Below, piece after piece: positions 617 to 58,268 of a DNA stretch of 64,000 nucleotides. Position numbers and translations under genes: made by a program. The stretch is from a virus. Each line of letters begins with the position of its first letter. The first letter of the stretch is position 1. The stretch lies in the IMG/VR virus record IMGVR_UViG_3300042197_004075, positions 1 to 64,000 of that record. One strand, 5' to 3'. The notes below the pieces were generated by a model that worked only from the letters and a program-made list of their open reading frames with translations, did not search any database and was not told the origin of the DNA.

Positions 617-829
617 TTATGATCGTTTTTTTCTTTTATTTTTAGGAATTGTATTGCTTGCCATAAGATCGCTTACTGGCCCTGCCAATCCGTGATCGCC
701 AACAGAATAAAATTGAGGAAATTTTCTTGTGAATAATCCACCAATAGGCAGACTAAATGTTGCAACATCAGCAGTTGATGTTGACACTTCGGATAATTCC
801 AGAAATTCTTTGAAATTCAATTTATTCAT
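617..829 (-). CDS. Small protein with capsid-targeting-like N-terminus
   Basis: This is a 70-residue protein of no recognised family. It begins MNKLNFKEFLELSE, with aromatic residues three apart followed by L-S-E, which resembles the capsid-targeting peptides of T4 internal proteins. The following STSTADVA stretch is very close to the STTADVA stretch after the N-terminus of the protein at 23232-23648, so the two may share a propeptide. The C-terminus is a basic tail (KNKRKKRS). Its ATG overlaps the stop of the upstream gene by four bases, so the two are translationally coupled. Packaging in the head is an inference. Confidence 0.6.
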   Translation of the reverse strand: MNKLNFKEFLELSEVSTSTADVATFSLPIGGLFTRKFPQFYSVGDHGLAGPVSDLMASNTIPKNKRKKRS

Positions 830-1221
830 GTGGCTTTTTCCTTTTCAGGAATGGTATCCCAACCAGTTAGTCCTTGAGCCACAAGTCGAAAGTAGGTGTC
901 TGCGTCAACTGTTCCTAGAACATGCATTTTTTCAACCTTGCGACCATCTTTATAAAGCATATTACCTTCATCATTCTTGAGGAATATTCGATACTTGTTA
1001 CCGCATGGCTCTACAGAAAATTGTCCAAGTCCAATTTGTGAACTTGTTTTAGGATCTAGCTTTGCAATAAGTTGTGCAAAAATTGGAACACTTTTTGTAA
1101 TTGCATCATTTACAACATTTGTTGGAATATTCAGTACAGATGTATATGCTTGTTTTATTGTGGCCAGTTTAGCTTTGGGATCAGCTTCTTGTTCAGCCAA
1201 AAATTGACGGAATGTTGTCAT
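826..1221 (-). CDS. Probable internal head protein with a T4-type capsid-targeting peptide
   Basis: This 131-residue protein of unknown family begins MTTFRQFLAE. T4 internal protein III begins MKTYQEFIAE, which has the same length, the same aromatic spacing, and an (L/I)-A-E at residues 8-10 where the T4 gp21 protease cuts. The remainder is mixed alpha/beta with no motif I recognise. The ATG at 1221 was chosen because a longer version would add a hydrophobic leader with no Shine-Dalgarno and would break the match. The stop overlaps the next gene start (ATGA). The start lies in a 30-bp divergent gap with the plus-strand gene at 1252. Confidence 0.65.
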   Translation of the reverse strand: MTTFRQFLAEQEADPKAKLATIKQAYTSVLNIPTNVVNDAITKSVPIFAQLIAKLDPKTSSQIGLGQFSVEPCGNKYRIFLKNDEGNMLYKDGRKVEKMHVLGTVDADTYFRLVAQGLTGWDTIPEKEKAT

Positions 1222-1251
1222 ATAGAATATATACAATAGAAAGACTAAAAT

Positions 1252-1611
1252 ATGAATAAATTTAGAGAGGTTATCTTTCATAAACAAAAAATTTTGTTAC
1301 AGGAAAAATTATGTTCTGTCTTGAATAAACACGCAGACAAAAAAGGTTTTATTATGTATTTTACACTTGGAGACAAGTGTTTTGCAACTACAGAAGATGG
1401 TAGAATTAGTTTCAAAAACCTTAAAAAACCAGTTAAAGGAACAGTCATTGAGGATGATTTTGAAGCAATAAATCTTGACAAATTAGTTAACGGGCAAAAC
1501 AATACTCAAATAATAGAAAAATCTGCGATTCCAAAAATTTCTGTTGTTGATTTTGATGAAATTTGTAAAATATTAAGTGACAAATATAAATTATTTACAT
1601 TACCAAAATGA
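1252..1611 (+). CDS. Hypothetical protein, 119 aa
   Basis: I do not recognise this protein. It is a small mixed-charge protein with no membrane segment or metal motif. Its start has no clear Shine-Dalgarno. The upstream 30 bp, shared with a divergent minus-strand gene, are AT-rich with a TATATA box. The stop codon overlaps the start of the zinc-finger nuclease (ATGA), so the two are probably co-translated and may act together. Confidence 0.55.
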   Translation: MNKFREVIFHKQKILLQEKLCSVLNKHADKKGFIMYFTLGDKCFATTEDGRISFKNLKKPVKGTVIEDDFEAINLDKLVNGQNNTQIIEKSAIPKISVVDFDEICKILSDKYKLFTLPK

Positions 1612-2210
1612 AAAAAAGATTAAGAGAATATTTGTGTTTTGTTTGTTCAGAAGAATTTGAAGACTATGATTCTATGAAATCACATATTTTTTCAAATCAT
1701 CGTGAAGGTGATGACTTTGTCGTTTGTACAAAATGCTTTTGTCCTTTAAGAGATTTAATCAATCATTACAAGACAAAACATATTGGTTGTCAAATACCAC
1801 CAAATTCGCAGATCAGACCAATTATTCTAAGAGATTGCTACAAAAATAAAAAAACAAAATTTAAACAAGGAAATTATATTTCTCAAAAAACAAACAGAAA
1901 TGTAAATTTCAGAAGTGGTCTAGAACTAAAATTCTATGAACAATTAGAAAAAAATCCAAAAGTTAGAGACTACAGGGTTGAAAATATTAATATTGAATAT
2001 TTTTTTGAAGGTACAAAACATACTTACACACCTGATGTTTTAGTTGAGTACACAGATGGTAAAATTGAAATGTGGGAAATTAAACCAAAGTCTCAAACTA
2101 AATGGCCAAAAAACTTAGCCAAGTGGCAAGCTGCCAATATATTTTGCAAAAATAGAAATTGGGAATTTATTGTGGTAACAGAAAATGCGCTCAAGAAGAA
2201 AAAACCTTAG
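1608..2210 (+). CDS. gp4: Zinc-finger nuclease related to T4 gp4 head-completion nuclease / TnsA-like fold
   Basis: The C-terminal half carries a TnsA/gp4-type PD-(D/E)XK nuclease core: E106 in FRSGLE, D143 in YTPDVLVEY, and E157-x-K159 in MWEIKPKSQT, then a W..A..FCKNRNWEF block. In T4-like phages this pattern belongs to gp4, which is needed to finish filled heads before tail joining. The first 60 residues add two C2H2 zinc fingers (C10-C13-H26-H31 and C40-C43-H53-H58), which the 150-residue T4 gp4 does not have. The start overlaps the preceding stop. An alternative is a homing-type or repair nuclease using the same fold. The nuclease call is firmer than the gp4 assignment. Confidence 0.65.
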   Translation: MKKRLREYLCFVCSEEFEDYDSMKSHIFSNHREGDDFVVCTKCFCPLRDLINHYKTKHIGCQIPPNSQIRPIILRDCYKNKKTKFKQGNYISQKTNRNVNFRSGLELKFYEQLEKNPKVRDYRVENINIEYFFEGTKHTYTPDVLVEYTDGKIEMWEIKPKSQTKWPKNLAKWQAANIFCKNRNWEFIVVTENALKKKKP

Positions 2211-3087: not shown

Positions 3088-3126
3088 AATTTCTCCTTCA
3101 CTTTATTATCTTATAGAGGTTTACTA

Positions 3127-7082: not shown

Positions 7083-9365
7083 TCATCCCATAAGATCATC
7101 AATTTCATTTTCATCTTCGCCAACATCGCTAATTTCGCCATCACATTCAAAATTAATTGCATCAAGATGGGGATCAAGATAGCTTCTAATGTCAAGCTCT
7201 GAATCTGCATCAAGAAGCAATGGATACTTATAAGCAATATCTAGTGGGATGTCATTCCGTTCCATAGATGATCTGAATGATACTTCTTCATTATTCGTAA
7301 ACTCTGGTTTTATAAGGAACTTACCACCACCTTGAGGAACGATTCGTCCCGCATCAATTAATGCACCCAAAACACCTCCAAGGGGATTTATACCCTTGTC
7401 AAAATAAAGTGGAATATTGTCAACTTCAACAAAGGGACGATAGCTACGATTTTTTTTATTTTGAATTTTAATATTTATTCCAAGAATTTTCTTTTTTGCA
7501 CTTCCAGCAATCTTGGATTCAATCTTCTTCTGTGTTTGTGATCTGATTCTCAAGGACGCATAAAATGGCAAACCCTGACCACCAGCAGCGGTGGTTTCTG
7601 GAGAATTGTGTACAATTGCACCATCCACAACATAAGTATGGTTCCCTTCTACTGTAATATCAAATTTAACAGAAGACCTAGTTGGAGGCTTGGCATAAAT
7701 TTCAAGAACTTCCGATTCTTGAACTCCATAATTAATTTTAAATTCATCCACTTCTTCAATTTCATAATTAAACAAATTTCTAAAATCAGGATGTAATTTG
7801 TAATTCATGCATGGGTGAACAAATGGAGCAATTAATCCATGCAATTTGTATGTGTTTTCAGAATCAAAAACAATTCCTTTGTCAGATATTTTGCAATCCA
7901 ACCCAAATTTTTCTTTCAAAACATTTTTCATTTTATTTTTATTTTGAAATTTCACACTATAAATTATTGATTTTCCTTTACCCCATTTAGCAAAATAACC
8001 AGAAAATGATCCATCATCTAAATACCAAACAGCAAGACCCAAAACATCCAAATTTTTAATGACTTCTTCAGGAATGACGCAATCTCTGCATTGAACTCCA
8101 TTCTTGCGAGGAGAATTGCGAAATTTTAAATTGTTTAATTCGCACATAGGAATTGTGTCAAACCCAACTCTTCTTTTTTCAGAATAAGAATAACCAATCC
8201 AAGGTGAAAGAATAGCTTCTTTCCAACGACAGTATTCAGCTTGTTTGCAACCATGATTAATTCTAAGACTTGTGCAAGAGTGATTTTTTCTTAATGAACC
8301 ATCGCCAAGAATAGAACCATAAACAACTTGTTTTTGTTCTTTTGTTAAATATTGAGGTTGAATTTGAGCTAATTTGTCTCCTACTTTTAATTCACCAGCA
8401 GCCTTTTCAATAATTTCTCCATTTTGATAAACAAACAACATGTGATTTGGAGTGCAACCAAATTGTGTAACTCCATTTCCCCATGGTTTTTTTGCTGTAA
8501 ATTGGATAAAACTTTCTCCTTTTTTCAAGTTACCATTTTTATGCCAAGCAATTACTTTTTTCGGTTCAATTGTATTTGTCTTGGCATTATATGACAAAAC
8601 TTCAACAGGTAATTTTTGATTAACAATTTTACCAATTTTCATAGACGAACCATCTGCCAAAATAACACGACTGTTATGGTGAAAACAACCATACATAACG
8701 CCTATCTTATCTCTTATTTGATTTAAAATAACTACAGTCACATCATTTTGTTCCATTTCCGTATTTAATTTTCGCAATTCTTTTGAACAAATTTTGGCTC
8801 TTTCACCCGGTTGTTCATTTGCGCCCACGATTCGTTTGAAGTCAGCTTTAGAGTATCCTTCGGGAAGTTGTGTTTCACGAAGTTCTCTTGCACTAGGAGA
8901 AACTGAAATAGAGTCATAAACAATAACAACAGGCAGATCAATTTTTTTCTTTTTCCGAATATACTCAATCGCTCTGTAAATTGTTCCAAAACAATCTTCC
9001 AAAGTTACTGGCGTATATCGAATAATTTTATTAATATCACACTTCGTGGCTTGCTGAATAAACTCTCCGTTTATTGCATTTTCTGTATCGAGGATGATTC
9101 CAATTCCACCAAGCTTTTGAACACCGGCAAGTATATTGGTGCCAAGCAAACTTTTACTACTTGCACTTGGCCCATAAATTTCAGTTAGTCTACCACCGGG
9201 AATGCCACCTTTGGTAAACTTACCACTAGCGCAATAATTAATGGCCAAATTGCCTGTGTCTACATAATACTTTGCTACATCAAGATTTGCGACAACTTGG
9301 GCACCTGTATCTTGTGCCATTTGAGTGAAAATATCATCTGCGCCGTCTTTTTTCTTAGCAGCCAT
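7083..9365 (-). CDS. uvsX: UvsX/RecA-type recombinase containing an intein
   Basis: UvsX coats ssDNA and drives strand exchange for recombination-dependent replication. After removal of the intein (residues 227-587) the mature protein is 399 residues, close to T4 UvsX (about 390). Visible are a UvsX-style Walker A GPSASSKS (65-72, lacking the final glycine of RecA as T4 UvsX does), LDTENAIN, VVIVYDSISV (Walker B), VVILNQIRDKIG and, after the intein, the L2-region PETTAAGGQGLPFYAS. The C-terminus is acidic. AGGAAGATGAGG precedes the ATG. A strong terminator just upstream (9423-9460) implies that uvsX has its own promoter. Confidence 0.95.
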   Translation of the reverse strand: MAAKKKDGADDIFTQMAQDTGAQVVANLDVAKYYVDTGNLAINYCASGKFTKGGIPGGRLTEIYGPSASSKSLLGTNILAGVQKLGGIGIILDTENAINGEFIQQATKCDINKIIRYTPVTLEDCFGTIYRAIEYIRKKKKIDLPVVIVYDSISVSPSARELRETQLPEGYSKADFKRIVGANEQPGERAKICSKELRKLNTEMEQNDVTVVILNQIRDKIGVMYGCFHHNSRVILADGSSMKIGKIVNQKLPVEVLSYNAKTNTIEPKKVIAWHKNGNLKKGESFIQFTAKKPWGNGVTQFGCTPNHMLFVYQNGEIIEKAAGELKVGDKLAQIQPQYLTKEQKQVVYGSILGDGSLRKNHSCTSLRINHGCKQAEYCRWKEAILSPWIGYSYSEKRRVGFDTIPMCELNNLKFRNSPRKNGVQCRDCVIPEEVIKNLDVLGLAVWYLDDGSFSGYFAKWGKGKSIIYSVKFQNKNKMKNVLKEKFGLDCKISDKGIVFDSENTYKLHGLIAPFVHPCMNYKLHPDFRNLFNYEIEEVDEFKINYGVQESEVLEIYAKPPTRSSVKFDITVEGNHTYVVDGAIVHNSPETTAAGGQGLPFYASLRIRSQTQKKIESKIAGSAKKKILGINIKIQNKKNRSYRPFVEVDNIPLYFDKGINPLGGVLGALIDAGRIVPQGGGKFLIKPEFTNNEEVSFRSSMERNDIPLDIAYKYPLLLDADSELDIRSYLDPHLDAINFECDGEISDVGEDENEIDDLMG
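7605..8687 (-). mobile_element. Intein with LAGLIDADG homing endonuclease inside UvsX
   Basis: This is a 361-residue in-frame insertion (UvsX residues 227-587). It starts at Cys (CFHHNSRVILADGS, block A), has block B GCTPNHMLF, two dodecapeptide motifs of the LAGLIDADG nuclease (YGSILGDGSL near 349-358 and WYLDDGSF near 447-454), block F FDITVEGNHTYVVDG, and ends VHN followed by Ser as the +1 nucleophile. Joining the flanks restores GVMYG-SPETT, the conserved RecA L2 region (E. coli GVMFGNPETT). Both acidic residues of the nuclease active sites are present, so it may still home. Confidence 0.95.
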
Positions 9366-12314: not shown

Positions 12315-12344
12315 AAATTCCTCCTTGTCAAAGTAAATAATAAC

Positions 12345-12980
12345 ATGGAATACAGTTTTAAACAATTTCTAAAATGTAAAGATTTTTATTTTTCCGAAAT
12401 CTTTGTTGGAAATCAAGAAAGCAAACGGAAAACAACTGATTTGAGTCCATTGGCAAGACAATTTGAAAATTTAACAAAATCAATACTAGGTGACAAAACA
12501 GTAAACAAATTATTTTTCAATCCTATCAAACAAATTGATGAAAATTTAATAGGATTTGCAAAATTATACAAACTTGCAGTTGGGCCTACAAAAACAGCAG
12601 CCATGGACACTTTCAGAGATATAAAAACTTATTTGACCACAAATAATAAAGACGAAAAAGAACAAGCTCTAAAATCCTTTTTGAGTAATGCTGATGAATT
12701 AGTAAGACTAGTTATAATAAATCCTATTTTTACCTTGGCTCCTACAGAAATAGCTTTTCAAGCCTTTGCAGAGACACTTGGTGTTAAACCTACTTTTGTA
12801 CATAAAATGATTTTCGCATTTATGACAAAAATTCCTTACTATGTTTTCATGTATGTTTTACCCATGCTTGATTTGCTTTCAGAAGTTGAAAATTTACAAG
12901 TTCAACAAACAGCAAAAAGACTTTCAACCAAAATTAAAAAATCTATGCCTAAAACAGCTTTGTATAAACCGGCAGCTTAA
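12345..12980 (+). CDS. Hypothetical protein with targeting-like N-terminus and a hydrophobic segment
   Basis: This 211-residue protein is of unknown family. It starts MEYSFKQFLKCKDFYFSE, similar to the capsid-targeting-like starts elsewhere in the window. It is mostly helical with a hydrophobic stretch at about residues 150-172 (MIFAFMTKIPYYVFMYVLPM) that may span or sit on a membrane. The C-terminal tail is basic. No Shine-Dalgarno is evident. Its stop overlaps the start of the FkbM methyltransferase gene (TAATG), so the two are co-translated. Confidence 0.5.
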   Translation: MEYSFKQFLKCKDFYFSEIFVGNQESKRKTTDLSPLARQFENLTKSILGDKTVNKLFFNPIKQIDENLIGFAKLYKLAVGPTKTAAMDTFRDIKTYLTTNNKDEKEQALKSFLSNADELVRLVIINPIFTLAPTEIAFQAFAETLGVKPTFVHKMIFAFMTKIPYYVFMYVLPMLDLLSEVENLQVQQTAKRLSTKIKKSMPKTALYKPAA

Positions 12981-18068: not shown

Positions 18069-18770
18069 ATGATTCCTAAAGTTTATACATCGAACAACGA
18101 AGTGATTCTCAAATATTGTAATGATAAAGTGACACTTTTGGCATATGAATTATCATGTTTTTACATGAATTGTGAAATGTTTTATTTTCCAAAAATTACA
18201 CACAGCAAATTTAATGTCATGAAACAGCCGCAAAAGCAATTCCTATTTAAACACATTTTAAAAATGGTAAATACCTTGAAGTCGAAATATTTACCAACTG
18301 AATTCATGGGTTATATTAAAGCGCAATTTGAAATTATGAAATTAAATGAAAACCACAATCCCATGGTTACGCCAAATATGCTTCATGGAAAAAAGGCTGA
18401 ATATCGATATGCAGTTTGGTTACAAATGCTTGCAGATAAACAAATTAAGGAAAACGAAAATACCTCAAAAATTTCTTTGAAGTATCTTGATCACTTAATG
18501 AAAATTTCAAAAAACAATATTAAAAATGTATTCGGTGAAAATGTTAAATTTCAAGATTTTGTCGATCATCAAAAAAAACTTATTTTGATGGTCAAATCAA
18601 AACAAATTGCACATGTGTATTGTTTTGCTAGTGTTTGGATAAAAAAACTTGAAAAAAGTGTTGTTGATGAAATAACAAAATTTAGCGAATCAGAAAATCT
18701 TTATAAATGCAATATTGATGATATCAATCAAATATATTTGAAATATTTTGAAAATGAACTTAATATGTAG
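18069..18770 (+). CDS. Hypothetical protein, 233 aa, beside the repeat cluster
   Basis: I do not recognise this protein. It is lysine-rich, helical and has no membrane segment. The ATG at 18069 is chosen because TTGGAGGA lies about ten bases before it; upstream extension starts only at GTG 18048, inside that site. It is the gene immediately downstream of the iteron-like array and hairpins, so a role in binding that region is a testable guess. Its last four codons overlap the convergent gene. Confidence 0.55.
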   Translation: MIPKVYTSNNEVILKYCNDKVTLLAYELSCFYMNCEMFYFPKITHSKFNVMKQPQKQFLFKHILKMVNTLKSKYLPTEFMGYIKAQFEIMKLNENHNPMVTPNMLHGKKAEYRYAVWLQMLADKQIKENENTSKISLKYLDHLMKISKNNIKNVFGENVKFQDFVDHQKKLILMVKSKQIAHVYCFASVWIKKLEKSVVDEITKFSESENLYKCNIDDINQIYLKYFENELNM

Positions 18771-19575
18771 TGAATATTTTTTCAAGAATAGTTACTATTT
18801 CTTGTGGTTCTTGATTTGGCGCAAACCACTCATCCCATTCAGGGGTTTGAGGACGATATTCGTAGCCTTGATTTGATGACGAATGCTCGGCTCCCCAACT
18901 ATGAATCAATCCAGCTTTGGGATCAAAGCAAACATAAACATTAAATTGATTTACTTTTTTATGATCCGGTGCTTCTAAGCCGTAGCCTTTGTAGCTAAAA
19001 TAAATTAAATAATTGTTAACATCCAATTGAATAACCCCTTGAAAATTCATCACTTGCGGATGTTTCAATTTCATGTTTGAGGCTATTTTGATGACAAGAT
19101 CTTGTAAATCTTGATAAGTAACATCTGGGCTTTCAAGGTCTGTTGAATCAATAAAAGTAATAATTTCATTTGCTCTAATAGCAAGCATTTTTTCTACAGC
19201 AATGTCTTGTATTGTTAAATGTTCGTAGTCGTTAATAACTGGAATGGCATATCTTGTGATCCACTTTGAATCTCCTTGAGCGTCTTTAATCATTCTTTGT
19301 ATTGTGATTCTGCATGATCCAAGTGGAGAAAATTCAACCCTAAGTGATCCCACTTGGTCTTTTGGCCCATAAGTGACCATGTTCCCAAAATCTTTAACTG
19401 GTATCTTGGTTCCAACATTTCCAAGACTCACAATTTCATCCAAGCAAGTTTCAACTTGTAGTTGTTCAATTGGATGTTGTTCGTAATTTAATGCGATTGG
19501 TGAGGTTTTTTTATTTGGATTTGTAAACCCAAAAAGCTTATCTGGTGAAGTGCCAATCCATTCGTAAAATTTCAT
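18760..19575 (-). CDS. Hypothetical protein, 271 aa, aromatic N-terminus
   Basis: This protein is of unknown family. It starts MKFYEWIGTSPDKLFGF, a weak relative of the targeting-like starts seen on other genes. It is mixed alpha/beta with long beta-rich parts (RVEFSPLGSCRITIQRM, QLDVNNYLIYFSYKG) and an acidic/Trp C-terminal region (PEWDEWFAPNQEPQE). No Shine-Dalgarno is seen; the upstream sequence is AT-rich (TATATA). It may be a virion or internal head protein, with low certainty. Confidence 0.5.
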   Translation of the reverse strand: MKFYEWIGTSPDKLFGFTNPNKKTSPIALNYEQHPIEQLQVETCLDEIVSLGNVGTKIPVKDFGNMVTYGPKDQVGSLRVEFSPLGSCRITIQRMIKDAQGDSKWITRYAIPVINDYEHLTIQDIAVEKMLAIRANEIITFIDSTDLESPDVTYQDLQDLVIKIASNMKLKHPQVMNFQGVIQLDVNNYLIYFSYKGYGLEAPDHKKVNQFNVYVCFDPKAGLIHSWGAEHSSSNQGYEYRPQTPEWDEWFAPNQEPQEIVTILEKIFTTY

Positions 19576-19619
19576 AGGTAGCCTGTTATAGAATAGTTAC
19601 TTGTATATTATATATTTAT

Positions 19620-19904
19620 ATGCAAACATTTAAACAATACATGGAAGCAAAACATCCTAGGAATACTTTGGACTCTAAAGAAAAATCATTCGCAGCACAA
19701 CTTAAATTAGGTAATATAACGCCAGAAGGTATGCAAACCAACAGAATATCTGGAACTGATAAAGCTGAATTTATGGCCAACCTAAGAAATTGGAGTGTTT
19801 TTCAAAAATTACCTAAAGAAAAACAAGAAACAATTTTGGATACAATCAATGATAAGCCCGATGTAACAAGTTTTGCTGATATTTGTGATTTGATTTATGA
19901 TTAA
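19620..19904 (+). CDS. Small protein with capsid-targeting-like N-terminus
   Basis: This 94-residue protein is of unknown family. It starts MQTFKQYMEAKHP, which fits the M-x-x-F-x-x-Y-M-x pattern but has E one place earlier than in T4 peptides. The remainder is helical and charged. No Shine-Dalgarno is present; instead a TATATTATATATTTAT stretch abuts the ATG, suggesting a late promoter and a very short leader. It ends exactly one base before the convergent methyltransferase gene. Confidence 0.6.
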   Translation: MQTFKQYMEAKHPRNTLDSKEKSFAAQLKLGNITPEGMQTNRISGTDKAEFMANLRNWSVFQKLPKEKQETILDTINDKPDVTSFADICDLIYD

Positions 19905-23231: not shown

Positions 23232-23648
23232 TTATATTCTATTTTTAACATTTAAATAGAATAAATAACTATCTTTCCCACCGGGTTTTAAGCTTTTTGC
23301 ATTTTGTCTATAATCAATTACAAGTTTTGTTTTTTCACTTTCATACATCAAAATATCTTTCAATCGTGATAAAACTGTAGTAATAAATTCTTTTGATCCA
23401 GTAATACGAATTCCGTCTTCTTGAATTGTAGTTCCTTTGTGGGTTGCCTCAATTGGTCGTAATGCTAATGGAATACTTGGAGCTATAGTTTGCCAAAATT
23501 TAAGTGTCTCTTTTTTGCTTGCTTTCCATGGCTTTAATTTTCTTGCATAAAAAGAATAAGGAGTTGGCGCAGAAACAGGAGCAACATCTGCTGTTGTTGA
23601 TGTCGGAGCAAAATCAACTTCTTCCAAAAATTGGTAAAAACTTTTCAT
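23232..23648 (-). CDS. Probable internal head protein with a T4-type capsid-targeting peptide
   Basis: This 138-residue protein begins MKSFYQFLEE, with F4, F7 and L8-E9-E10: the T4 internal-protein pattern with a gp21-type cut site after residue 10. Then comes a Thr/Ser/Ala/Pro linker whose STTADVAPVS matches the linker of the protein at 617-829. The C-terminal 90 residues look like a compact alpha/beta domain (KFWQTIAPSIP, TVLSRLKDILMYE, DSYLFYLNVKN) of unknown type. It is divergent from the Gly-rich gene at 23667, with only an 18-bp AT-rich gap between the starts. Confidence 0.65.
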   Translation of the reverse strand: MKSFYQFLEEVDFAPTSTTADVAPVSAPTPYSFYARKLKPWKASKKETLKFWQTIAPSIPLALRPIEATHKGTTIQEDGIRITGSKEFITTVLSRLKDILMYESEKTKLVIDYRQNAKSLKPGGKDSYLFYLNVKNRI

Positions 23649-23666
23649 TTGTAATATATATTCAAT

Positions 23667-24071
23667 ATGATATCAATTTATGAATATAGAATTAAAAATA
23701 ACTTGTTTATGGAAGAGGATGCACCAGCGGGGGGCGCACCAACACCCGCAGCTGGAGGAGATGCAGGAGGATTAGGTGGAGGCGCACCACCACCGGCAGC
23801 TGGAGGAGATGCAGGAGGACTTGGTGGAGGTTTAGGTGGAGGGTTAGGAGGTGGAGGGCCAACACCACCGGCACCTGATATGGGTGGTGGTTTAGGAGGT
23901 GGATTAGGTGGAGCGGTGGGGGCTGGAGGGGCTGTATCTGATATAACAACAAAACTAGAGATATATAATTGGGATTCAATATTACAAGAATATTTCAGAA
24001 ATAAAGACAAAGAATCTGATGAAAAAAAGGATCGGGATACTATCAAGAGATTATCTTCACAGTTTTTTTAA
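23667..24071 (+). CDS. Glycine/proline-rich low-complexity protein
   Basis: This 134-residue protein begins MISIYEYRIKNNLFMEED, a looser version of the targeting-like start. Residues of about 20-90 are almost only Gly, Ala, Pro and Leu in repeats of the GGDAGGLGGG type. The last 40 residues form a charged helical tail. The start has no Shine-Dalgarno; TATATATT lies about ten bases upstream. Composition resembles the protein at 46827-47492, and both may be head-internal or scaffold-type proteins. The DNA repeats make slippage and length variation likely. Confidence 0.6.
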   Translation: MISIYEYRIKNNLFMEEDAPAGGAPTPAAGGDAGGLGGGAPPPAAGGDAGGLGGGLGGGLGGGGPTPPAPDMGGGLGGGLGGAVGAGGAVSDITTKLEIYNWDSILQEYFRNKDKESDEKKDRDTIKRLSSQFF

Positions 24072-31269: not shown

Positions 31270-31297
31270 TTTAGAATATAATAACTAAATAAATTGT

Positions 31298-31834
31298 ATG
31301 GAAGACTTTAATTTCAAATCATTTTTACTAAATGAAAACAAAGTATACTTGGCACAAGAAATTGGTGAAATCTTAAATTCTGTGCAAGAGCTTAATGATG
31401 AAGTTGATAAAATTGGTACAAGAAATTTAGTACGATATACACAAGTTATAATTAACAAAGCTAGAGGAATTTTACAAGGACATTGGGGGGATGAAAATCG
31501 TAAGTGGTTAACCAAACTTCAAAAGTGTGCTGTGGCATTGGCAAAAGCTATAGATGAAAATGATAATACTGAAGAAGTATTGAAATCAGTTCAAACTGAA
31601 GTAGAAAATATGTTGAAAAAGATGGGGGTGCCATTTAATACAATTTCACCATCTAGTCAGCCAAAACAGCAAGACAATAGCGCAACGACGGCAGCAATAC
31701 CACAACAAGTTGGTGGCGAGACTCCCGCAGGACAACCGGCACCAACATTGCAGCCTGACTTAGCGGGACAAGAAGGTATGCCAGCATCACCGACTGGAGC
31801 AGTCAATCAAATGCCTGACAATCTAGGTCTATAG
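31298..31834 (+). CDS. Probable virion/internal protein with targeting-like N-terminus and Pro/Gln-rich tail
   Basis: This 178-residue protein begins MEDFNFKSFLLNENKVY, with F6/F9 and L11-N12-E13, similar to capsid-targeting peptides with an L-x-E cut site. Residues 20-105 are helical; the last 65 are Pro/Gln/Ala/Gly-rich (SSQPKQQDNS, GGETPAGQPAPTLQP). There is no Shine-Dalgarno; TATAATAA lies about 15 bases upstream, similar to other candidate late genes. It stands alone between the kinase and the amidotransferase genes. Confidence 0.55.
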   Translation: MEDFNFKSFLLNENKVYLAQEIGEILNSVQELNDEVDKIGTRNLVRYTQVIINKARGILQGHWGDENRKWLTKLQKCAVALAKAIDENDNTEEVLKSVQTEVENMLKKMGVPFNTISPSSQPKQQDNSATTAAIPQQVGGETPAGQPAPTLQPDLAGQEGMPASPTGAVNQMPDNLGL

Positions 31835-46826: not shown

Positions 46827-47492
46827 TTACATTTGGAAATTCATAGCTGGTGCTTGTGCTTGTGCATTTCCAGCGGCAGGAGCTTGTTGACCTCCTGCTG
46901 GAGGTGCGGCTCCACCAGATTCCCCGCCCATGTTCATATCAAGATCCATACCGGAATCTGCGCCTTGAGCCTGATCACCACCCGCAGCGTCACCTTCGGG
47001 TTTATTGCCTTCCTCACCTTCGCTATCGGCCTCTTCTTCATCTTCATCCTCCACGGAATCAGCAAGTTCACCAATCTTATTTACTGCTTGTTTAAGTCTT
47101 GAAACAGTATCTGAATCTAGTGTATTATTGTTATCTTGTGCTGCTGAAAGAACTTGATCTAAAAGTCCTTTGATCTCGCCTAGAGATTCTTTTGTTTCAT
47201 TCTTGCCAACTGAGCCAACTGATTTAGAAAGTTGTGAATCGCCTGTATCTCCCATATCGCTCATAGTTCCTTGCTGATCAGCAGGAACTTGGCCAGAAAC
47301 TCCCTTCATCCCACCAGCAGAAGCCCCTGAATTATCTCCACCAAAATCAACACCGCCACCAGCAGCATCTCCACCCATGCCGCCTCCCATATTCCCACCC
47401 ATGGAGCCACCCATGTCACCACCAGCGGCAGCATCTTGCTCAAAAAGTTTTTTAGCTTGAATTATTTGATACATTTCATAAAAAGTTTTCAT
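46827..47492 (-). CDS. Gly/Ala-rich acidic protein with targeting-like N-terminus
   Basis: This 221-residue protein begins MKTFYEMYQIIQAKKLFEQ, with F4, Y8 and L16-F-E18, similar to capsid-targeting peptides. Residues 20-70 are Gly/Met/Asp repeats (GGSMGGNMGGG type), then a helix (about 100-145), an acidic run (EDEDEEEADSEGEEG) and a Gly/Pro/Gln/Ala tail. GAGGAG precedes the ATG. Composition suggests an intrinsically disordered head-core or scaffold protein, similar to 23667-24071. Confidence 0.65.
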   Translation of the reverse strand: MKTFYEMYQIIQAKKLFEQDAAAGGDMGGSMGGNMGGGMGGDAAGGGVDFGGDNSGASAGGMKGVSGQVPADQQGTMSDMGDTGDSQLSKSVGSVGKNETKESLGEIKGLLDQVLSAAQDNNNTLDSDTVSRLKQAVNKIGELADSVEDEDEEEADSEGEEGNKPEGDAAGGDQAQGADSGMDLDMNMGGESGGAAPPAGGQQAPAAGNAQAQAPAMNFQM

Positions 47493-48520: not shown

Positions 48521-49156
48521 ATGACTATTTACAAAAAAGATGGTTCTATTTATAAATTTTCAGAACCAAATAAAATTATGATTCAACAAAACTTATGGGA
48601 TAATTATATAACCCATAATTTGAATTACCTTTCTCAATATATATTAATGGCAGAGGAAAAATCTTTTTATTCAAATGTACTAGATTTAACAACAAAAATA
48701 AAAAAGCTATCTGAAATTAAAACAAATGTTGATATATCTAATCAACAACAGTTAATTGAAATTGCCAAAGAAGTTGAGCAAAATCAACAATTAGAACAGA
48801 TTACAGAGATAAAACCAATTGTTCAATCAACACAAGATACTAGATTAAAGTTACAAAAAACAATTGCACATTGTTTAATTGCTAAAATAAAAGAAAAAAC
48901 TGATGATTTATATGGAGATATTAACAGAAAGATTGAATACTCAGATTCATTTACTGTAGAAATTATAATTGTTGAAACACAAGATCTTAAAATTAAAATT
49001 TTTACAACTTATGAAAATTTTTCCATGGACACAATTTTGTATCCTAAAGACACGGAAAAGAGATGGTGGCAAATTGTTAATATCATACCTAATCCTAAAG
49101 GATTCTTTTTGGAGTGTATTCCATCAAAACTACAACCTAGTTTTTCTATGAAATAA
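48521..49156 (+). CDS. Hypothetical structural protein, paralogous N-terminus
   Basis: This 211-residue protein begins MTIYKKDGSIYKFSEPN, which shares the MTIYxxDGxxY start of the protein at 47524. The rest is helical with long polar stretches (QQLIEIAKEVEQNQQLEQIT) and a C-terminal beta part. The ATG at 48521 lies after a TATATTAAT box; earlier start codons would overlap the divergent gene. A virion role is likely from context. Confidence 0.55.
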   Translation: MTIYKKDGSIYKFSEPNKIMIQQNLWDNYITHNLNYLSQYILMAEEKSFYSNVLDLTTKIKKLSEIKTNVDISNQQQLIEIAKEVEQNQQLEQITEIKPIVQSTQDTRLKLQKTIAHCLIAKIKEKTDDLYGDINRKIEYSDSFTVEIIIVETQDLKIKIFTTYENFSMDTILYPKDTEKRWWQIVNIIPNPKGFFLECIPSKLQPSFSMK

Positions 49157-51776
49157 GTCTTTGCAATGCATTTTTTATTTGCGGAAATGAACTCATTTTT
49201 TTCAATTTTAATATATTGGTAATTTTTTTTCTTATAGATTCATTTATCGTAAAAACTTGTGTGTGTAGATTATTCATAACATCATATTTTTCAGACAAAT
49301 TTGATTGAAGTGCAGCATTTCCGACTCTAAAATCACTTATGGACTGTAGCAATGATTCTAGTATTTGATTGTTGTTTTCAATAGTTTTTACTAAACTTTG
49401 AATTGCTCTATTGTAGACTGTACTTTCTGGATTAGCAAACTTAATTAACAATTGCATATCTTCCAAAGAAATAGCAGGTTTCATTCCATTTCTGATTTGT
49501 TGTAACAAAAGATATGCTTGTTTGTAATCAATTCTTGTGGATGCTACTGTACAATTTGCATCTGCGTCAGGGGTGCCCAGACGAACTATTTCGGTTTCAA
49601 CAGCAGAATCTAAGTCTTTGCCACTTCTCGTCACACCATTTATAAATGATGAGGCGCATAATTCAGCTGATGTACGAGCATCTGGCCCTGAAAATTTAGG
49701 AGTATAGGCGACCACTAAACGACTAAACAGTTGTAGTCTGTTTGGATTGACACCATCAGCATCAGCAATTCTATTTCTGTATTCAGCCCTGTTGGCAACA
49801 TCGTGCAACCTACCCTGATCAGCTTCCTCACCTTCAGTTGCTGGTTCAATAAACATAGCACCACTATAAAACCTGTTTATTATGTGTTTTATTCTATTGC
49901 AGTCATAAAAAACAGGTAATCTTCTTTGCTTAAATGTCCCACAACCAAAATCAAGTTGTATCATTCTCGTAAATAAATCATTAAGAATTTTTTTGACTTC
50001 ATTTACAGGATCGCTTTTAACACGAATGTAATTATCAGTTAGAAGTTCTGCACAATGATCGTGCAAACGCTTGTAGTCTATTTCGTTCATACATTTATGC
50101 CATTCAGACCATTCAAATGTAAATTCGGCTCCATGAGCTTTTTCTGTTTTTGTTGTCTTAAGTTTTTTCTCAAGATAATTAACAACCAACCTAGACATTG
50201 AATAATTGCCGTCTTCAGTTAAAACTGGTTGAAGAACTCCATCACCACTTGTTTCAAAATTATATTTTTTATAATCTAATATTGATCGTATATTTTGGAT
50301 TTTTGACAAGAAACCTGATTCTGTTGCAATAACACCAGATCGTTGAGGAGAATCTTGATTTGGAATTAAACCACCGCTGATAATTCTTAAATTCTTTTTC
50401 AAACTTGGGTCTTCTTTAAAACTATCCGGTGTTATCCACATAAATGGTCTATATTTACCTTTTTGTCCTTGTGGTAAATGCAAATCTTCATACCTGTGCA
50501 AATTACCTGTAGCATATTCTGAATCTTGTAAATCTGGTCTGTCGTGAATTGGATACAACATCCTTCCACGCTGTAAATCGGGGATTTCAATTATTTCTGG
50601 TTCACCATAAGAATCTCTGCGATTTTTTTTCCTCATCACTTTAACTTGTTTCATTTTGATGCGAGGAGGCAATTTTTCATCTGAATTGGTCTCGGCACTA
50701 TAACGAGGGAATCTGTTGTGTGGATCAACAAATGTGTTGTTTCTTCTCGCTATTCGCAACTCTGATTTACTTAAAACTATACTCAAATATTTATTTCTAC
50801 TTCTGTCTCTTAGGTATGTTTGAAGTTCTGTTAATCCTTTAAGCCTTGTAGCAGGAACTGAAATTTCAAGAATTCTATCTTTTATATATTGAATAATGCC
50901 AATTGCGCCTTTGACTGATCGAGCCAGTTCCTCAATATTTTCATCTCTTATCAAAGAAATCATTCTGTTGTACAATTCTCTGTTTGCAGAATACCATGTA
51001 ATTAAATTTCTTGCAGAAGAAAGATTTCTAAAAAAATTAAAATAGGTTTGCCACCAATGTTTTTCATAAAGTTCATTTACTTCTGTGCCATCAATATTGA
51101 TAAAATCTTTTTTTTCACTTTCTTTTGGTGCGACTGGTGGTAAATGATGCAAATCAGCCCCAGTAAATTCTATCCATCGTCTTAAAGCTTTTCGGATTGT
51201 ATCTCTGCTTGGGAACTGAAAACCTCTTGAGCTAAATTTTGATTTTGTTTGTTCATTTGTTATGTTATGAATTCTTACATTGGTTAAATCATATCCTTGT
51301 GGATTCATGGGACTTACTTCAAGTGATTTAACTAGTTCTTCAATATATGAATTTGCTTTTATAAACGCTTCGCTAGTTTTCCTTTCTGTTCTCCCATGTG
51401 AATAATTTAAAGCACGAACTGTAAAATCTATATCTCGATTTCGGACATTAATGTGATAGAATCTTTCTTCAGCCAAATTTATAGCTTGTAGTAAAGCTCT
51501 TTTCTTTTTAATTTGCAAATCTAAATCAACGCTCTCAAGATTTTTGAGAATTTCATGATATTTGGCTTGTACAAATTCATTATAGCCAGCTTTTTCTCGT
51601 TCAATTTCCCTATTTCGTAAACTACTATAAAGAACAGTATTGTATCTGAGCCACAATGCATCTACCCAATATTCTGCTGGGAATTGTTCAAGAAATGTTA
51701 TATCGCCACTTGAAACAGTAAACAGGAAAGGTTTTCTATTTACTGCACCAACTATGTACTCGTTAAATAAACGCAT
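49146..51776 (-). CDS. Large virion-associated protein, 876 aa
   Basis: This is the largest protein here without a named family. It begins MRLFNEYIVGAVNRK, loosely like the targeting peptides (F4, Y7, I8). It is mixed alpha/beta, with highly basic patches (KQVKVMRKKNRRDS), Arg/Asn-rich parts and a helical C-terminal 200 residues (QILESLLQSISDFRVGN, ILKLKKMSS). GAGGT precedes the ATG. Its size, location among neck/tail genes and start fit an injected internal protein or a large baseplate or tail protein. Confidence 0.6.
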   Translation of the reverse strand: MRLFNEYIVGAVNRKPFLFTVSSGDITFLEQFPAEYWVDALWLRYNTVLYSSLRNREIEREKAGYNEFVQAKYHEILKNLESVDLDLQIKKKRALLQAINLAEERFYHINVRNRDIDFTVRALNYSHGRTERKTSEAFIKANSYIEELVKSLEVSPMNPQGYDLTNVRIHNITNEQTKSKFSSRGFQFPSRDTIRKALRRWIEFTGADLHHLPPVAPKESEKKDFINIDGTEVNELYEKHWWQTYFNFFRNLSSARNLITWYSANRELYNRMISLIRDENIEELARSVKGAIGIIQYIKDRILEISVPATRLKGLTELQTYLRDRSRNKYLSIVLSKSELRIARRNNTFVDPHNRFPRYSAETNSDEKLPPRIKMKQVKVMRKKNRRDSYGEPEIIEIPDLQRGRMLYPIHDRPDLQDSEYATGNLHRYEDLHLPQGQKGKYRPFMWITPDSFKEDPSLKKNLRIISGGLIPNQDSPQRSGVIATESGFLSKIQNIRSILDYKKYNFETSGDGVLQPVLTEDGNYSMSRLVVNYLEKKLKTTKTEKAHGAEFTFEWSEWHKCMNEIDYKRLHDHCAELLTDNYIRVKSDPVNEVKKILNDLFTRMIQLDFGCGTFKQRRLPVFYDCNRIKHIINRFYSGAMFIEPATEGEEADQGRLHDVANRAEYRNRIADADGVNPNRLQLFSRLVVAYTPKFSGPDARTSAELCASSFINGVTRSGKDLDSAVETEIVRLGTPDADANCTVASTRIDYKQAYLLLQQIRNGMKPAISLEDMQLLIKFANPESTVYNRAIQSLVKTIENNNQILESLLQSISDFRVGNAALQSNLSEKYDVMNNLHTQVFTINESIRKKITNILKLKKMSSFPQIKNALQRLIS

Positions 51777-52745: not shown

Positions 52746-53210
52746 ATGTTAAGTTGGAAAAATTATAAATCTATTGTTTCAGAAGCAGTACAAAATGTAC
52801 GCTATTCTGTTGAAATTAATTATGATACTTCACAAATAGACGCAGTAAGTGGATTTACAAAAATTTGTTTGGGATACATAAGTGCCGCACTTAAGAAGAT
52901 GGATTTTCATACAAAAATTATTCTTACACAAAAACCATTTAGAGTTATAGTCGCATCAAGAAATTGGGATGATGGTGAGTGGGTTGGCATGATAAGTTAT
53001 AATGATGAACTAGATTGCTTTGTTGTTTCAAGAGGATACTACAATAAAATGAACAAGACTGTAAGGGTTGAAAAAACTGTACAAATGCCTCTTGAATATA
53101 GTGCAAAAGACATTTCTAAGTATGTTTTCCAAATGATGAAAGATTTAAAAGGTGTAAAAGATAAGCACTCTCCTGAACACAGGAAAGTGCATCTCAGGAA
53201 AAATTCTTAA
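52746..53210 (+). CDS. Probable internal or virion protein with targeting-like N-terminus
   Basis: This 154-residue protein begins MLSWKNYKSIVSEAVQN, with W4, Y7 and V-S-E at 11-13. The rest is alpha/beta with a strand-rich part (RVIVASRNWDDGEWVGMISYN) and a Lys-rich C-terminus. ATAGGA precedes the ATG. It follows the neck gene by ten bases and shares its transcript. The function is unknown. Confidence 0.6.
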   Translation: MLSWKNYKSIVSEAVQNVRYSVEINYDTSQIDAVSGFTKICLGYISAALKKMDFHTKIILTQKPFRVIVASRNWDDGEWVGMISYNDELDCFVVSRGYYNKMNKTVRVEKTVQMPLEYSAKDISKYVFQMMKDLKGVKDKHSPEHRKVHLRKNS

Positions 53211-54034: not shown

Positions 54035-54053
54035 CAATAAAAAACCTAAATAA

Positions 54054-54269
54054 TTAGTTGGCTTCTGAAGGTCCGCCCTTTGCTACTTTAGTTGCCTGAA
54101 GTTTAAATGGCGCATCAGCAGCAATAGGTGTAAAATAGTTATTTGGATACTGCGCTCTTACATAAGCGTCAGGATAAGCATATGGAGCAAGACCACCTCT
54201 TTTTGCGTTCTCGCTCACAGTTGGAACGGACAAATTATTATCAGCAGCCCAATCGGAAAATGTTTTCAT
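54054..54269 (-). CDS. Small protein with targeting-like N-terminus
   Basis: This 71-residue protein begins MKTFSDWAADNNLSVPTVSE, with F4 and W7 in place and V-S-E at 18-20. The remainder is Pro/Ala/Tyr-rich (GGLAPYAYPDAYVRAQYPNNYF). GAGGAG lies eight bases before the ATG at 54269. The function is unknown; it is a candidate for packaging in the head. Confidence 0.6.
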   Translation of the reverse strand: MKTFSDWAADNNLSVPTVSENAKRGGLAPYAYPDAYVRAQYPNNYFTPIAADAPFKLQATKVAKGGPSEAN

Positions 54270-55345: not shown

Positions 55346-56794
55346 ATCTAAATCTTTGATAGCAAACCCAATCGTTTCCCTAAACGATTGGGTTCTTTCT
55401 TTTCTATAAATTTTGACATTTTTGTACCAATCTGTCGTTGCGCCAAATTTACCCCAACGCCAGTCTGGTTTATCTGAACAAAATAAAATTACTGGAGTCC
55501 CAACTCCCCCAGCAATATGAACGGGCAAACTATCAACAGACATGATCAAATCCATTTCTGACATTAATTTTGCTGTTGCACTTATATCTGTTAGTTTATC
55601 AGCCAAGTCTATTATGTTATACTTTTCAAAATCTTTACTGAAATCTACTGGCTCTTTTTGATGCGGATATTTTCTAGCTCGTCTATCTTTTTGAAATGAA
55701 TAGATTTCATGTTTTTCAAAATCAAGTTGATCAGCAAAATCTGTGAAAAATGTACTTCTTTGATAGTCCATAGGAGCGGCAGGATTTCCCGCCCAAATTA
55801 ATCCAATTTTTTTCTTTTTATTTTTTGGATAATTATAGTCACAAATTTTGTAAGCATCAGGAATAGTTTCAATTCCTAGATGAAAAGGCAAACTTAAAAG
55901 TGATATTCCAAGTTTTGTGTCGGAATTAATTTGTGGTTTCCATCTAATTTTGTCTGTCATTATTGAAATAAAGTTTTCAGGAGCGAAGAAATATGAATTC
56001 TTATAAATGCTTTGAAATTTTTCAAGAAAGCGCAAGTACATCAGGTTATCGCCAGCACCTTGCTCACAGAATACTACAAATTTCAAATCTTCTGACAAAT
56101 TGTCTGGCTTTAACAAATTATTTACGATCATAAATTTTATTAAATTATCATAACAGTAATATCTTTCTTCATAATAAGTCCATGCTTCCTTATACTTTTT
56201 TTGGAAAGCTAAACAATGGAATAAATCTACGCTAATTTCTTTGTCGCAACTTGGAATAGCAACAGCAGTTTTAAAGCATTTTTCAGCATCTTGATACTTA
56301 CTCATTTCTGCAAGACAGCAACCTTTGTTTGCGTGATGAAACCATTCGCCTGATTTCATTTGAAGTGCGTTATCAATAAATTCAAGTGCTTCATTATATC
56401 GATTTAATCTAGATAGTGTCAAAGCATGATTTGATCTAAATACTGCCTTGTCAGGGTTCATCTCAATAGCTTTTAAGGAATAAACCAAAGATTCTTCCAT
56501 TCTATTATTGTTGTTTAAAAATAAAGCGTAATTATTGAAGTCATCTGGATTGTTATAATTTCTGCAAAGCTCAAGGTATAGTTTTTCAGCCTCTTCTAGC
56601 TTATTCAATTTTGTTTTTACCAAAGATAGAAGTTGATAAAAACAATGTCGATCAGATACTTTTATAGTCTGCTCAAGAAGTTGTTCAGAAGTTTTATAAT
56701 CTCTGGCTTTAAGATAATAGGTTACTGTTTGAAACGCTTTGTCGAGAAGTTCATCAAGATCAATAGTTTCACAATTTTTGTCATTATTGTTCAT
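55340..56794 (-). CDS. TPR protein with a glycosyltransferase (GT9/O-GlcNAc-type) C-terminal domain
   Basis: The N-terminal 230 residues hold several TPR-type helical pairs (AEKLYLELCRNYNNPDDFNNYALFL; KAIEMNPDKAVFRSNHALTLSRLNRYNEALEFID, read in parts). The C-terminal domain has VVFCEQGAGDNLMYLRF, KKIGLIWAGNPAAPMDYQRS and LIMSVDSLPVHIAGGVGTPVILF, matching glycosyltransferase family 9-like proteins. It may glycosylate a virion or host protein. The ATG at 56794 has GTGGAG before it. The 3' end contains the terminator of the convergent gene. Confidence 0.8.
   Translation of the reverse strand: MNNNDKNCETIDLDELLDKAFQTVTYYLKARDYKTSEQLLEQTIKVSDRHCFYQLLSLVKTKLNKLEEAEKLYLELCRNYNNPDDFNNYALFLNNNNRMEESLVYSLKAIEMNPDKAVFRSNHALTLSRLNRYNEALEFIDNALQMKSGEWFHHANKGCCLAEMSKYQDAEKCFKTAVAIPSCDKEISVDLFHCLAFQKKYKEAWTYYEERYYCYDNLIKFMIVNNLLKPDNLSEDLKFVVFCEQGAGDNLMYLRFLEKFQSIYKNSYFFAPENFISIMTDKIRWKPQINSDTKLGISLLSLPFHLGIETIPDAYKICDYNYPKNKKKKIGLIWAGNPAAPMDYQRSTFFTDFADQLDFEKHEIYSFQKDRRARKYPHQKEPVDFSKDFEKYNIIDLADKLTDISATAKLMSEMDLIMSVDSLPVHIAGGVGTPVILFCSDKPDWRWGKFGATTDWYKNVKIYRKERTQSFRETIGFAIKDLDL
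55365..55405 (+). terminator. Terminator placed inside the end of a convergent gene
   Basis: AACCCAATCGTTT (55365-55377) and AAACGATTGGGTT (55382-55394) form a perfect 13-bp stem with a four-base loop, then CTTTCTTTTC. It serves the basic-protein gene ending at 55345 but lies within the C-terminal coding region of the minus-strand glycosyltransferase gene. Confidence 0.8.
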
Positions 56795-56837
56795 GTTTTT
56801 TGCTCCACTATCATAAATAGAGTAGGGGGCAAAATAT

Positions 56838-57143
56838 ATGGGTTGTGGATGCAGAAAAAATAAAGGTGCTTTACCCGCAAGAAATGTCAACTTAAACCCT
56901 ATTAGAAATGTTGTTTCTGGTGGGAGAAATATAGTTGCTCCTCAACCACAACAGGCCAATATTGTACCGCAAAACAATCCTTCTAAATCAAATCAACCAC
57001 AGGCAAAACCGGGTGCTGATCCCAAAGTTGCCAATATGAATCTCAATGTCCAAAAAAATCCACAAACTACTGGTATGACAAAAGAAAGGCTCGAAATAGA
57101 AAAAAGAAGAAGAGAAGCTATTAGGCGAGCTTTAGGAAAATAG
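56838..57143 (+). CDS. Small MGCGC-type protein
   Basis: This 101-residue protein begins MGCGCRKNKG, then a Pro/Gln/Asn-rich disordered middle, then a charged helical end (ERLEIEKRRREAIRRALGK). GGGGG lies about nine bases before the ATG and ATCATAAATA, a T4-late-like box, lies 20 bases before that. The Cys-rich N-terminus might bind metal, accept a thioester or be lipidated. It is divergent from the TPR-glycosyltransferase gene, and the amidoligase follows at 58319. Confidence 0.55.
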   Translation: MGCGCRKNKGALPARNVNLNPIRNVVSGGRNIVAPQPQQANIVPQNNPSKSNQPQAKPGADPKVANMNLNVQKNPQTTGMTKERLEIEKRRREAIRRALGK

Positions 57144-57185
57144 TTGTTGTTGGATAAATAATTTATTCAAGATTGGAGACATAAA

Positions 57186-58268
57186 ATGATTAATTATGAT
57201 AAATGGAAACTTCTTAATGAAAACTTCATGATTTCACAACCAATTGGTGGAATCAAATCTAATAATGGTTTCCTCGCATATAACAAGTTACACGAAGATG
57301 AAGAAATTGAGGAAGAAGAAGTCGAAGAAGAAGACATGGATGATGAAGGCGAAGAAGACATGGAAGACATGGATGACGAAGGCGACGAAGACATGGAAGA
57401 CATGGATGACGAAGGCGACGAAGACATGGAAGACATGGATGACGAAGGCGACGAAGACATGGATGACGAAGATATGGATGACATGGATGACGAAGATATG
57501 GATGACATGGATGACGAAGGCGGCGAAGACATCGATGACATGGATGACGAAGATGAACACCTAATGGGTCGTGTTCGTAGCATTCACCATCCTGATGCTC
57601 ATAAGCATAAGCATCCTAAGCATCGTGAGCATATGCATGATCGTCCACATCATAAAATGGATGTTGATGAAATTGATTTTGCTAATGCTGCTTCTGAAAA
57701 ATATAGTAAGATGTATGCTAGCTGCGAATCAATGGATTACAAGCTTCCTCCTATGAATGAGTGGCTTGCTAGCGTTAATGGCCAAATGTTTCCAGAACAA
57801 CTTCAGGAATACATCGGTAAGAAAGATGTGTCCATTAATGAGGCTCAAGAAGAAAAATTGACAGGCAAAATGACACAACTAAATCAAAAAATTGATCAAC
57901 TTGCAGAAAAACAGTCAATAACTAGAGTTGAGTTCATGTCTGCTATAAGACATTTCATTCAGGCTCTTGAGCCAAAAGTTTCAGGTGGATTGCCATCAAT
58001 GGCTAAGAGAAGACTTGATCAATTCCTTGAAGAAGTTGCTAAAGTAGTAGAAGACGGCGATTCCAAAAAAGAAGAACCTTCAGAAATGAAGCACATGAAA
58101 AAGGGCAAGGATAAATGTGGTTATTCCATGCGTATGATGGGTATGAATAAGGGTAAAGTTCACCCCAAGCACATGAAAATGTCAAAGAAAAAAATGGGCA
58201 AAGGTTGCATGGATGCCAAGATGAAAGGTCATATGAAATCCCACATGAAAAAAGGCTGGAAGGGTTGA
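57186..58268 (+). CDS. Acidic-repeat protein with basic His/Lys/Met-rich end; candidate head-core/scaffold protein
   Basis: This 360-residue protein begins MINYDKWKLLNENFMIS with Y4, W7 and L10-N-E12 (targeting-like). Residues of about 37-125 are tandem Asp/Glu/Met repeats (MDDEGDEDMED type). Then come a His/Lys segment (HKHKHPKHREHMHD), a helical domain (about 160-290) and a Lys/Met-rich tail. The charge split resembles T4 scaffold or core proteins (gp22/gp67/gp68), though no homology is claimed. TTGGAGAC precedes the ATG. It ends at the strong terminator at 58292. Confidence 0.7.
   Translation: MINYDKWKLLNENFMISQPIGGIKSNNGFLAYNKLHEDEEIEEEEVEEEDMDDEGEEDMEDMDDEGDEDMEDMDDEGDEDMEDMDDEGDEDMDDEDMDDMDDEDMDDMDDEGGEDIDDMDDEDEHLMGRVRSIHHPDAHKHKHPKHREHMHDRPHHKMDVDEIDFANAASEKYSKMYASCESMDYKLPPMNEWLASVNGQMFPEQLQEYIGKKDVSINEAQEEKLTGKMTQLNQKIDQLAEKQSITRVEFMSAIRHFIQALEPKVSGGLPSMAKRRLDQFLEEVAKVVEDGDSKKEEPSEMKHMKKGKDKCGYSMRMMGMNKGKVHPKHMKMSKKKMGKGCMDAKMKGHMKSHMKKGWKG
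57336..57467 (+). repeat. Four 33-bp tandem repeats in the acidic-repeat gene
   Basis: Units begin at 57336, 57369, 57402 and 57435, the first a variant and the last ending in a changed triplet. Each codes for an 11-residue acidic unit. Shorter 9-15 bp units follow to about 57540. Length variation by slippage is expected. Confidence 0.8.

Follow-up and report, generated by a model that had tools for sequence, protein, structure and literature searches.

A shared N-terminal tag predicted to direct unrelated proteins into the capsid of a huge T4-like phage

Why should proteins that otherwise have nothing in common begin with the same few residues? The question is raised by a 64,000-nucleotide stretch of viral DNA (hereafter the window), which corresponds to positions 1–64000 of IMG/VR record IMGVR_UViG_3300042197_004075 (75,060 bases, 33% guanine plus cytosine (GC)). 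An original prediction, made from the letters of the window, listed 13 open reading frames (ORFs) whose products start with a pattern of about ten residues, M-x-x-[FYW]-x-x-[FYW]-[LIM]-x-E, and read this start as a T4-like tag that sends proteins into the phage head. All 13 ORFs are present at their assigned positions. Our survey of the window, the rest of the record and 12 related records confirms the shared N-terminus and supports the head-targeting interpretation: we consider it highly probable that the tagged proteins are internal proteins targeted to the capsid of a huge T4-like phage, with a tag that would be cut by a gp21-type protease and that travels in a portable cassette with a promoter.

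Results

The core of the motif, [FYW]xx[FYW][LIM], occurs near the N-terminus in 9 of 89 genes, whereas the frequency at internal positions leads one to expect 0.66 (Poisson P = 4e-8). Because this core was partly picked from these very sequences, an independent held-out profile was trained on the 12 relatives only and scored against 40,000 internal draws. Six genes, each named here by its lower coordinate, outscored every draw: 617 (617–829, minus strand; 70 amino acids, MNKLNFKEFLELSE followed by VSTSTADVATFSLPIGGLFTRKFPQ), 826 (826–1221, minus strand; 131 amino acids, MTTFRQFLAE), 12345 (12345–12980, plus strand; 211 amino acids, MEYSFKQFL), 19620 (19620–19904, plus strand; 94 amino acids, MQTFKQYMEA), 23232 (23232–23648, minus strand; 138 amino acids, MKSFYQFLEE) and 31298 (31298–31834, plus strand; a conserved protein of 178 amino acids, MEDFNFKSFLLNEN). 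For 826, the ATG at 1221 is the better start and a TTG extension is unlikely; 617 is the second gene after it, the two overlapping at ATGA. Next in the ranking came 68563 (0.07 expected by chance), 15625 (0.14) and 54054 (0.20), and 57186, 18760, 49146, 52746, 46827 and 23667 scored individually within chance. The shared pattern is thus real as a property of the set, whereas its literal form FxxFLxE is confined to 826 and 23232. Gene 68563, which lies outside the window and was absent from the initial list, was found by searching the genome for further genes with the tagged start.

Family conservation was examined by seeking homologues with the body of each protein alone, its N-terminus withheld. 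The strict motif recurred in nine of nine homologues of 31298, in seven of seven of 68563 and in five of seven of 23232, the remaining two reading FxxW; the aromatic pair is thereby kept in all seven homologous ORFs of 23232, while the linker behind it diverges. Both aromatics are also kept in the families of 54054 (54054–54269, minus strand; 71 amino acids, MKTFSDWAADNN), of which 17 members start MKTFxxWA; of 52746 (52746–53210, plus strand; 154 amino acids), with family start MxxFxxW/Y/F; of 18760 (18760–19575, minus strand; 271 amino acids, MKFYEWIG), a tag variant retained as FxxW/Y; and of 49146 (49146–51776, minus strand; 876 amino acids), whose relatives of 800–1050 amino acids start with FxxF tags. 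An early idea that 18760 and 49146 were chance baseplate starts was dropped, their orthologues keeping the tag, and 15625 was rejected as a look-alike, the motif being missing from its family. For three further genes, clearly tagged relatives were found via N-terminal and positional resemblance only: 23667 (23667–24071, plus strand; 134 amino acids, Gly/Pro/Ala-rich, MISIYEYRIKNNLFMEED) has a degenerate tag, and similar Gly-rich genes of relatives have MNTFKEFLESKLINED; 46827 (46827–47492, minus strand; 221 amino acids, Gly-rich, MKTFYEMYQIIQ) has a syntenic counterpart in relative G023 that starts MKSFYEFYQ; and 57186 (57186–58268, plus strand; 360 amino acids, acidic, MINYDKWKLLNENF) belongs to a six-genome family with similar N-termini (MLSYKQWKTLNES). 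Members of the 54054 family (also at L111, L134 and L220) have the form MKTFxxWA...AYPDAYVRxQYPD, measure about 70–100 amino acids and often occur as two adjacent copies per genome.

Body-only searches with 617, 826, 12345 and 19620 yielded no homologue outside their own record, an IMG/VR search with 826 gave no relatives, and Pfam and PHROGs returned nothing convincing for the tagged proteins of the window. Predicted structures of 826 (predicted local distance difference test (pLDDT) 56) and 12345 (pLDDT 43) were too poor for structure searching. Accessory cargo with a fast turnover, like that of the T4 ip genes, would be expected to look like this. The downstream bodies of the listed proteins are, as the original prediction held, mutually unrelated (best E-value 0.10).

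The last 11 kb of the record, beyond the window, are a T4-like head module in which gp20 portal, gp21 protease, gp22-like scaffold and gp23 capsid genes stand in T4-like order, the scaffold-like protein being named from position alone. Specifically, the module contains an intein-bearing portal gene (G000:66033-68561, G000 being the source record; L002:3033-5561; PF07230, 9e-71), the major capsid protein gene (PF07068, 2e-86), a gene for a core-like protein of 587 amino acids (69020) and the small tagged gene 68563 (MQSFQDFISRRFEMNED), which adjoins the portal gene on the opposite strand. The gp21-type protease that head targeting would call for lies in the same module (G000:70875-71306; Pfam Peptidase_S77, E-value 9e-25; PF03420, 4e-23). 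The window itself also encodes UvsX, DnaB, gp32, a helicase, tail sheath and hub. The best match of the capsid protein among phage records is LR756511.1, a 595-kb metagenomic phage (76% identity; the next matches reach 32–43%), and an IMG/VR search returned 80 close loci, with contigs of 532, 343 and 223 kb among those carrying them; megablast against phages found no relatives. The window is assigned to a huge T4-like phage because of this head module, the capsid relatives and the large contigs that carry close loci. The intein domain of the portal gene (PF14890, 1.7e-15) lies after ADEA/CVAG, and portal calls broken at a similar place in relatives G017 and G023 suggest inteins there too. The UvsX-like recombinase (window 7083–9365, 760 amino acids) has a LAGLIDADG homing endonuclease match mid-protein, probably another intein, and an untagged COOH.NH2 ligase family protein (phrog_3815, 2e-49) is encoded at window positions 58319–59209.

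The 12 related records were read in overlapping pieces with genes called by a simple home-made script, and the loci of the source genome were called in separate stretches. Tag enrichment was found in 12 of 12 relatives (P from 1e-3 to 1e-20; 195 strict matches against about 29 expected), as was Peptidase_S77, which is therefore present in 13 of 13 records with our own. With the expected share of false hits set to 5%, a leave-one-genome-out profile yielded 275 tag candidates in the 13 records: 45 in LR756511.1 (W01), 34 in G009, 23 each in G007 and G023, 22 each in G005 and G008, 21 each in G006 and G018, 19 in G015, 14 in G021, 12 in G016, 10 in G017 and 9 in our own record. As a positive control, the complete T4 genome gave three strict genes, including the known ipII and ipIII; as a negative control, the first 109 kb of phiKZ (117 called genes) gave no tag, and Peptidase_S77 was not detected in phiKZ. 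Strict matches in S-SKS1 (five) and RAS14 (nine) were near or modestly above expectation. LR756511.1 has a second, weaker Peptidase_S77 match (242621–242989, E-value 3.5e-9) beyond its head-module copy, and in G007 (532 kb) short ORFs at 58150, 351369, 453477, 517817 and 524328 match pieces of the capsid protein, as fragments or divergent copies, alongside an intact capsid copy at 338843.

A candidate cleavage site of the L/I-x-E type directly follows the tag in 151 of the 275 candidates, and [LIMVF]NE occurs there 30 times, against 7.1 in shuffled and 1.2 in internal sequence. INE or LNE is also found in four of the phage's own head proteins: capsid (at residue 46), scaffold, core and protease. 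Relatives retain the capsid site in the form RL[IMVF]NE before [VTA]STDT, some with RLMLEREKLFNE. The motif STxTADVA, which the original prediction had noticed as a linker common to 617 and 23232, corresponds to the predicted mature N-terminus of the capsid protein (NE before VSTDTADVAQFKRISIPLVRRIYPQ). It is present in 617 (SE before VSTSTADVATFSLPIGGLFTRKFPQ) and one residue shorter in 23232, but of these two only 617 matches the capsid arm significantly: its score was reached by none of 20,000 shuffles, and the STTADVA of 23232 was rejected as a capsid-arm likeness (6491 of 20,000). The score of a relative of 617, G009 45952 (QE before VGTGTNAVAVFARQIMPLVRR), was reached by one of 20,000 shuffles, and 617 as query finds the capsid arm in five relatives. 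One may speculate that the small 617 protein uses the contacts of the capsid arm after its predicted cleavage. Gene 54054, tried as a second capsid-arm mimic (YVRxQYP), was dropped, the Arg being kept by only some distant members.

The sequence upstream of tagged genes is strongly enriched in TAAATA, much more weakly in permutations of the same letters, and not in the reverse complement. A TA[AT]ATA box stands 4–6 nucleotides before the ATG in 78 of 204 tagged genes and in 85 of 3410 others (odds ratio 24). Stratified by genome, boxes ending 2–9 nucleotides before the ATG number 84 in strictly tagged genes against 14.9 expected (odds ratio 16, z = 19.9), whereas Shine–Dalgarno (SD)-like sites are rarer there than expected (73 against 123.8, z = −7.6). 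The spacing is close to fixed, with maxima at 4 (36 cases) and 5 nucleotides (29 cases) and at most four cases at any other value. In sequence (CTAAATA, ATAAATA or TATATA upstream of presumed late genes) the box resembles the T4-type late promoter TATAAATA (NATAAATA in cyanophage S-PM2); its position differs, the T4 box ending 13–34 nucleotides before the ATG, and no comparable box was found in T4, S-SKS1 or RAS14. Within the window, boxes at 5–6 nucleotides precede 826 (TATATA, 1228–1233, minus strand; 6 nucleotides), 12345 (TAAATA, 12334–12339, plus strand; 5), 19620 (TATATA, 19609–19614, plus strand; 5), 31298 ((C)TAAATA, 31286–31291, plus strand; 6) and the divergent genes 23232 and 23667, whose ATGs are 18 bp apart and share a single palindromic TATATA (23655–23660), 6 nucleotides from each. 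Relatives have similar divergent pairs that share a box, and T4 has none. Tagged genes look leaderless because the box abuts the ATG and SD sites are depleted. T4 late promoters start transcription about 6–7 nucleotides after the box; if a T4-like distance holds, box-bearing mRNAs would begin at or next to the AUG. Clade-wide, about 60 genes without a strict tag have a box 4–5 nucleotides before the ATG; many carry a looser aromatic pair, and others (the MNNNMLFIPRPT and MALKNLDGTPYQLRG families) resemble other virion proteins.

A single DNA cassette of promoter, ATG and tag is found repeatedly in front of unrelated bodies. Genes 90152 and 90666 of G006 share a 100-bp stretch of 92% identity that starts about 66 bp upstream and extends to about codon 11, beyond which they diverge, and genes 94128, 95000 and 96689 of the same record share 47–60 bp at 89–98% spanning box, ATG and tag; in both sets the bodies are unrelated. 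Weaker matches connect G005 and G006. Short matches are partly due to the common peptide, but the 100-bp case, mostly non-coding, is not so explained. The propeptide shuffling suggested in the original prediction thus finds backing in cassette DNA identity among relatives, and none in the STxTADVA resemblance on which it had been based.

The bodies behind the tags are diverse: 266 of them fall into 182 clusters, 144 of which are singletons, and a Pfam scan of 131 representatives returned many different families, one representative apiece. Among them, each individually checked, are a 2′-5′ RNA ligase/Acb1 (2H phosphoesterase) protein (L137:8632-9186; 1e-11 and 3e-9), NADAR (W01 521964; 2e-19), Nudix (G021 58394; 8e-19), a PolyA_pol head of the CCA-adding type (G006 86966; 5e-24), a HAD_SAK RNA-repair domain (W01 582920; 2e-15), a C39 peptidase (2e-12), NIF phosphatase, AdoMet decarboxylase and sigma-70. 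Three tandem tagged paralogues of 567–725 amino acids (G005:47450-53221; L122) each have their own abutting box, the first (47450) with ankyrin repeats by Pfam. Some proteins of G006 and G005 looked ART-like by eye, but Pfam gave this no backing and it is not claimed.

Discussion

These findings are consistent with an account in which the first 8–14 residues would serve as a T4-type capsid targeting sequence: the aromatic pair, three residues apart, would dock the protein onto the prohead core, while the Leu/Ile together with the Glu behind it would let a gp21-type protease remove the tag. Most tagged genes would have their own T4-type late promoter, with a box 4–6 nucleotides before the ATG and an mRNA starting at or next to the AUG, and promoter, ATG and tag would form a portable 5′ cassette, joined to many unrelated bodies. 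The packaged bodies would probably be ejected with the DNA and take immediate effect in the host, with defences or host RNA and nucleotide chemistry as the target of many.

The closest parallel is T4 itself, whose IPI, IPII and IPIII have a 10-residue tag with aromatics at positions 4 and 7, an L/I-x-E site and a protease of the gp21 family. Amber mutagenesis of T4 IPIII showed that residues 4 and 7 matter for targeting and 8 and 10 for processing (PMC9026906), the same positions on which the motif falls here. T4 Ip1–3, which have only their leader in common, inhibit GmrSD enzymes (PMC12373910), and the T4 ip bodies, unrelated behind one leader as here, vary between relatives. By contrast, T4 has three strict motif genes, against 9 to 45 tagged genes per record here, many with enzymatic domains; its ip genes lie behind SD sites and lack an abutting box, whereas here an ATG-abutting box has been copied along with the tag. 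In giant phages, many head proteins such as SPN3US gp245 and phiKZ gp175 are likewise cut after Glu by a gp21-related protease and are ejected, a fate predicted here from sequence; these are cut at S/A-x-E (PMC9026906), unlike the L/I-x-E-type site of the tags. Polyvalent proteins and MuF fusions (Iyer, Aravind and colleagues) also provide virion-delivered, early-acting effector domains, there fused into large proteins and here, by our reading, delivered from separate small genes with a predicted cleavable tag. The tag–protease system is already known from T4; for the scale, the enzyme content and the coupling to an abutting late promoter in one reusable cassette, we found no precedent in the open-licence literature searched.

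The most serious alternative, which we nevertheless judge improbable, is that the motif docks to another virion site, such as tail, baseplate or neck, and that the proteins are structural components. Tail-type genes lie near 46827, 49146, 52746 and 54054, whose families have virion genes as neighbours and could belong to the tail or neck, and the 49146 family is large and conserved. However, residues 4, 7, 8 and 10 agree with the experimentally mapped T4 head tag, with ipII and ipIII recovered by the same motif; a cleavage site of the same type is present in the capsid protein; and the tagged 68563 adjoins the portal gene, while 69020, the head core protein, starts in a similar way. Less credible still is a by-product of leaderless, AT-rich starts, in which early codons would be selected for weak mRNA structure and not for the peptide, as the co-occurrence of the tag with an ATG-abutting box and SD loss might suggest. 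Yet the Leu/Ile/Met position of the tagged genes is encoded by ten different codons, Phe is split between TTC (83) and TTT (78), and the motif is therefore a protein-level one; moreover, the second aromatic is most often encoded by TGG (Trp), the same residues are kept in GC-rich genomes, and the motif also stands behind SD sites in 617, 54054, 46827 and T4 ipII and ipIII. Chance selection of common short aromatic N-termini by the earlier reader, in keeping with 6 of the 13 listed proteins scoring individually within chance and with the look-alike 15625, is already refuted for the whole set by the held-out profile, by the conservation of the tag within families and by its independent enrichment in the 12 relatives, and its probability is negligible.

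Several observations weigh against the reading as capsid-targeted cargo. A clear [LIMVF]xE is found in only about half of the tags; the box at 4–6 nucleotides is found in only about 40% of strictly tagged genes, others having SD sites (617, 54054, 46827 and 57186); and roughly one in two box genes lacks a strict tag. The products of 617, 826, 12345 and 19620 are without assignable function, and the folds of 826 and 12345 are unreliable. Some domain matches (primase, sigma factor and FkbM) may be in genes tagged by chance, and with a home-made gene caller some starts may be wrong.

The broader proposal, which in our judgement is evenly poised, is that a clade-wide cassette of late-promoter box, leaderless ATG and capsid tag makes captured genes virion cargo, so that tens of injected proteins per genome, including Acb1-like, NADAR, Nudix, tRNA-end and RNA-repair enzymes, would constitute a counter-defence kit delivered before phage gene expression. 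If the tag does signal packaging, N-termini would give a direct and testable list of the virion cargo of huge phages. Most such cargo would then belong to no known family, pointing to proteins that act before phage gene expression, for example in anti-defence. The promoter–tag cassette would be a simple evolutionary device for making any gene cargo, and a ready-made delivery tag for engineering. Taken together, our results suggest that each virus particle may carry a large and rapidly changing set of proteins ready for injection into the bacterium.

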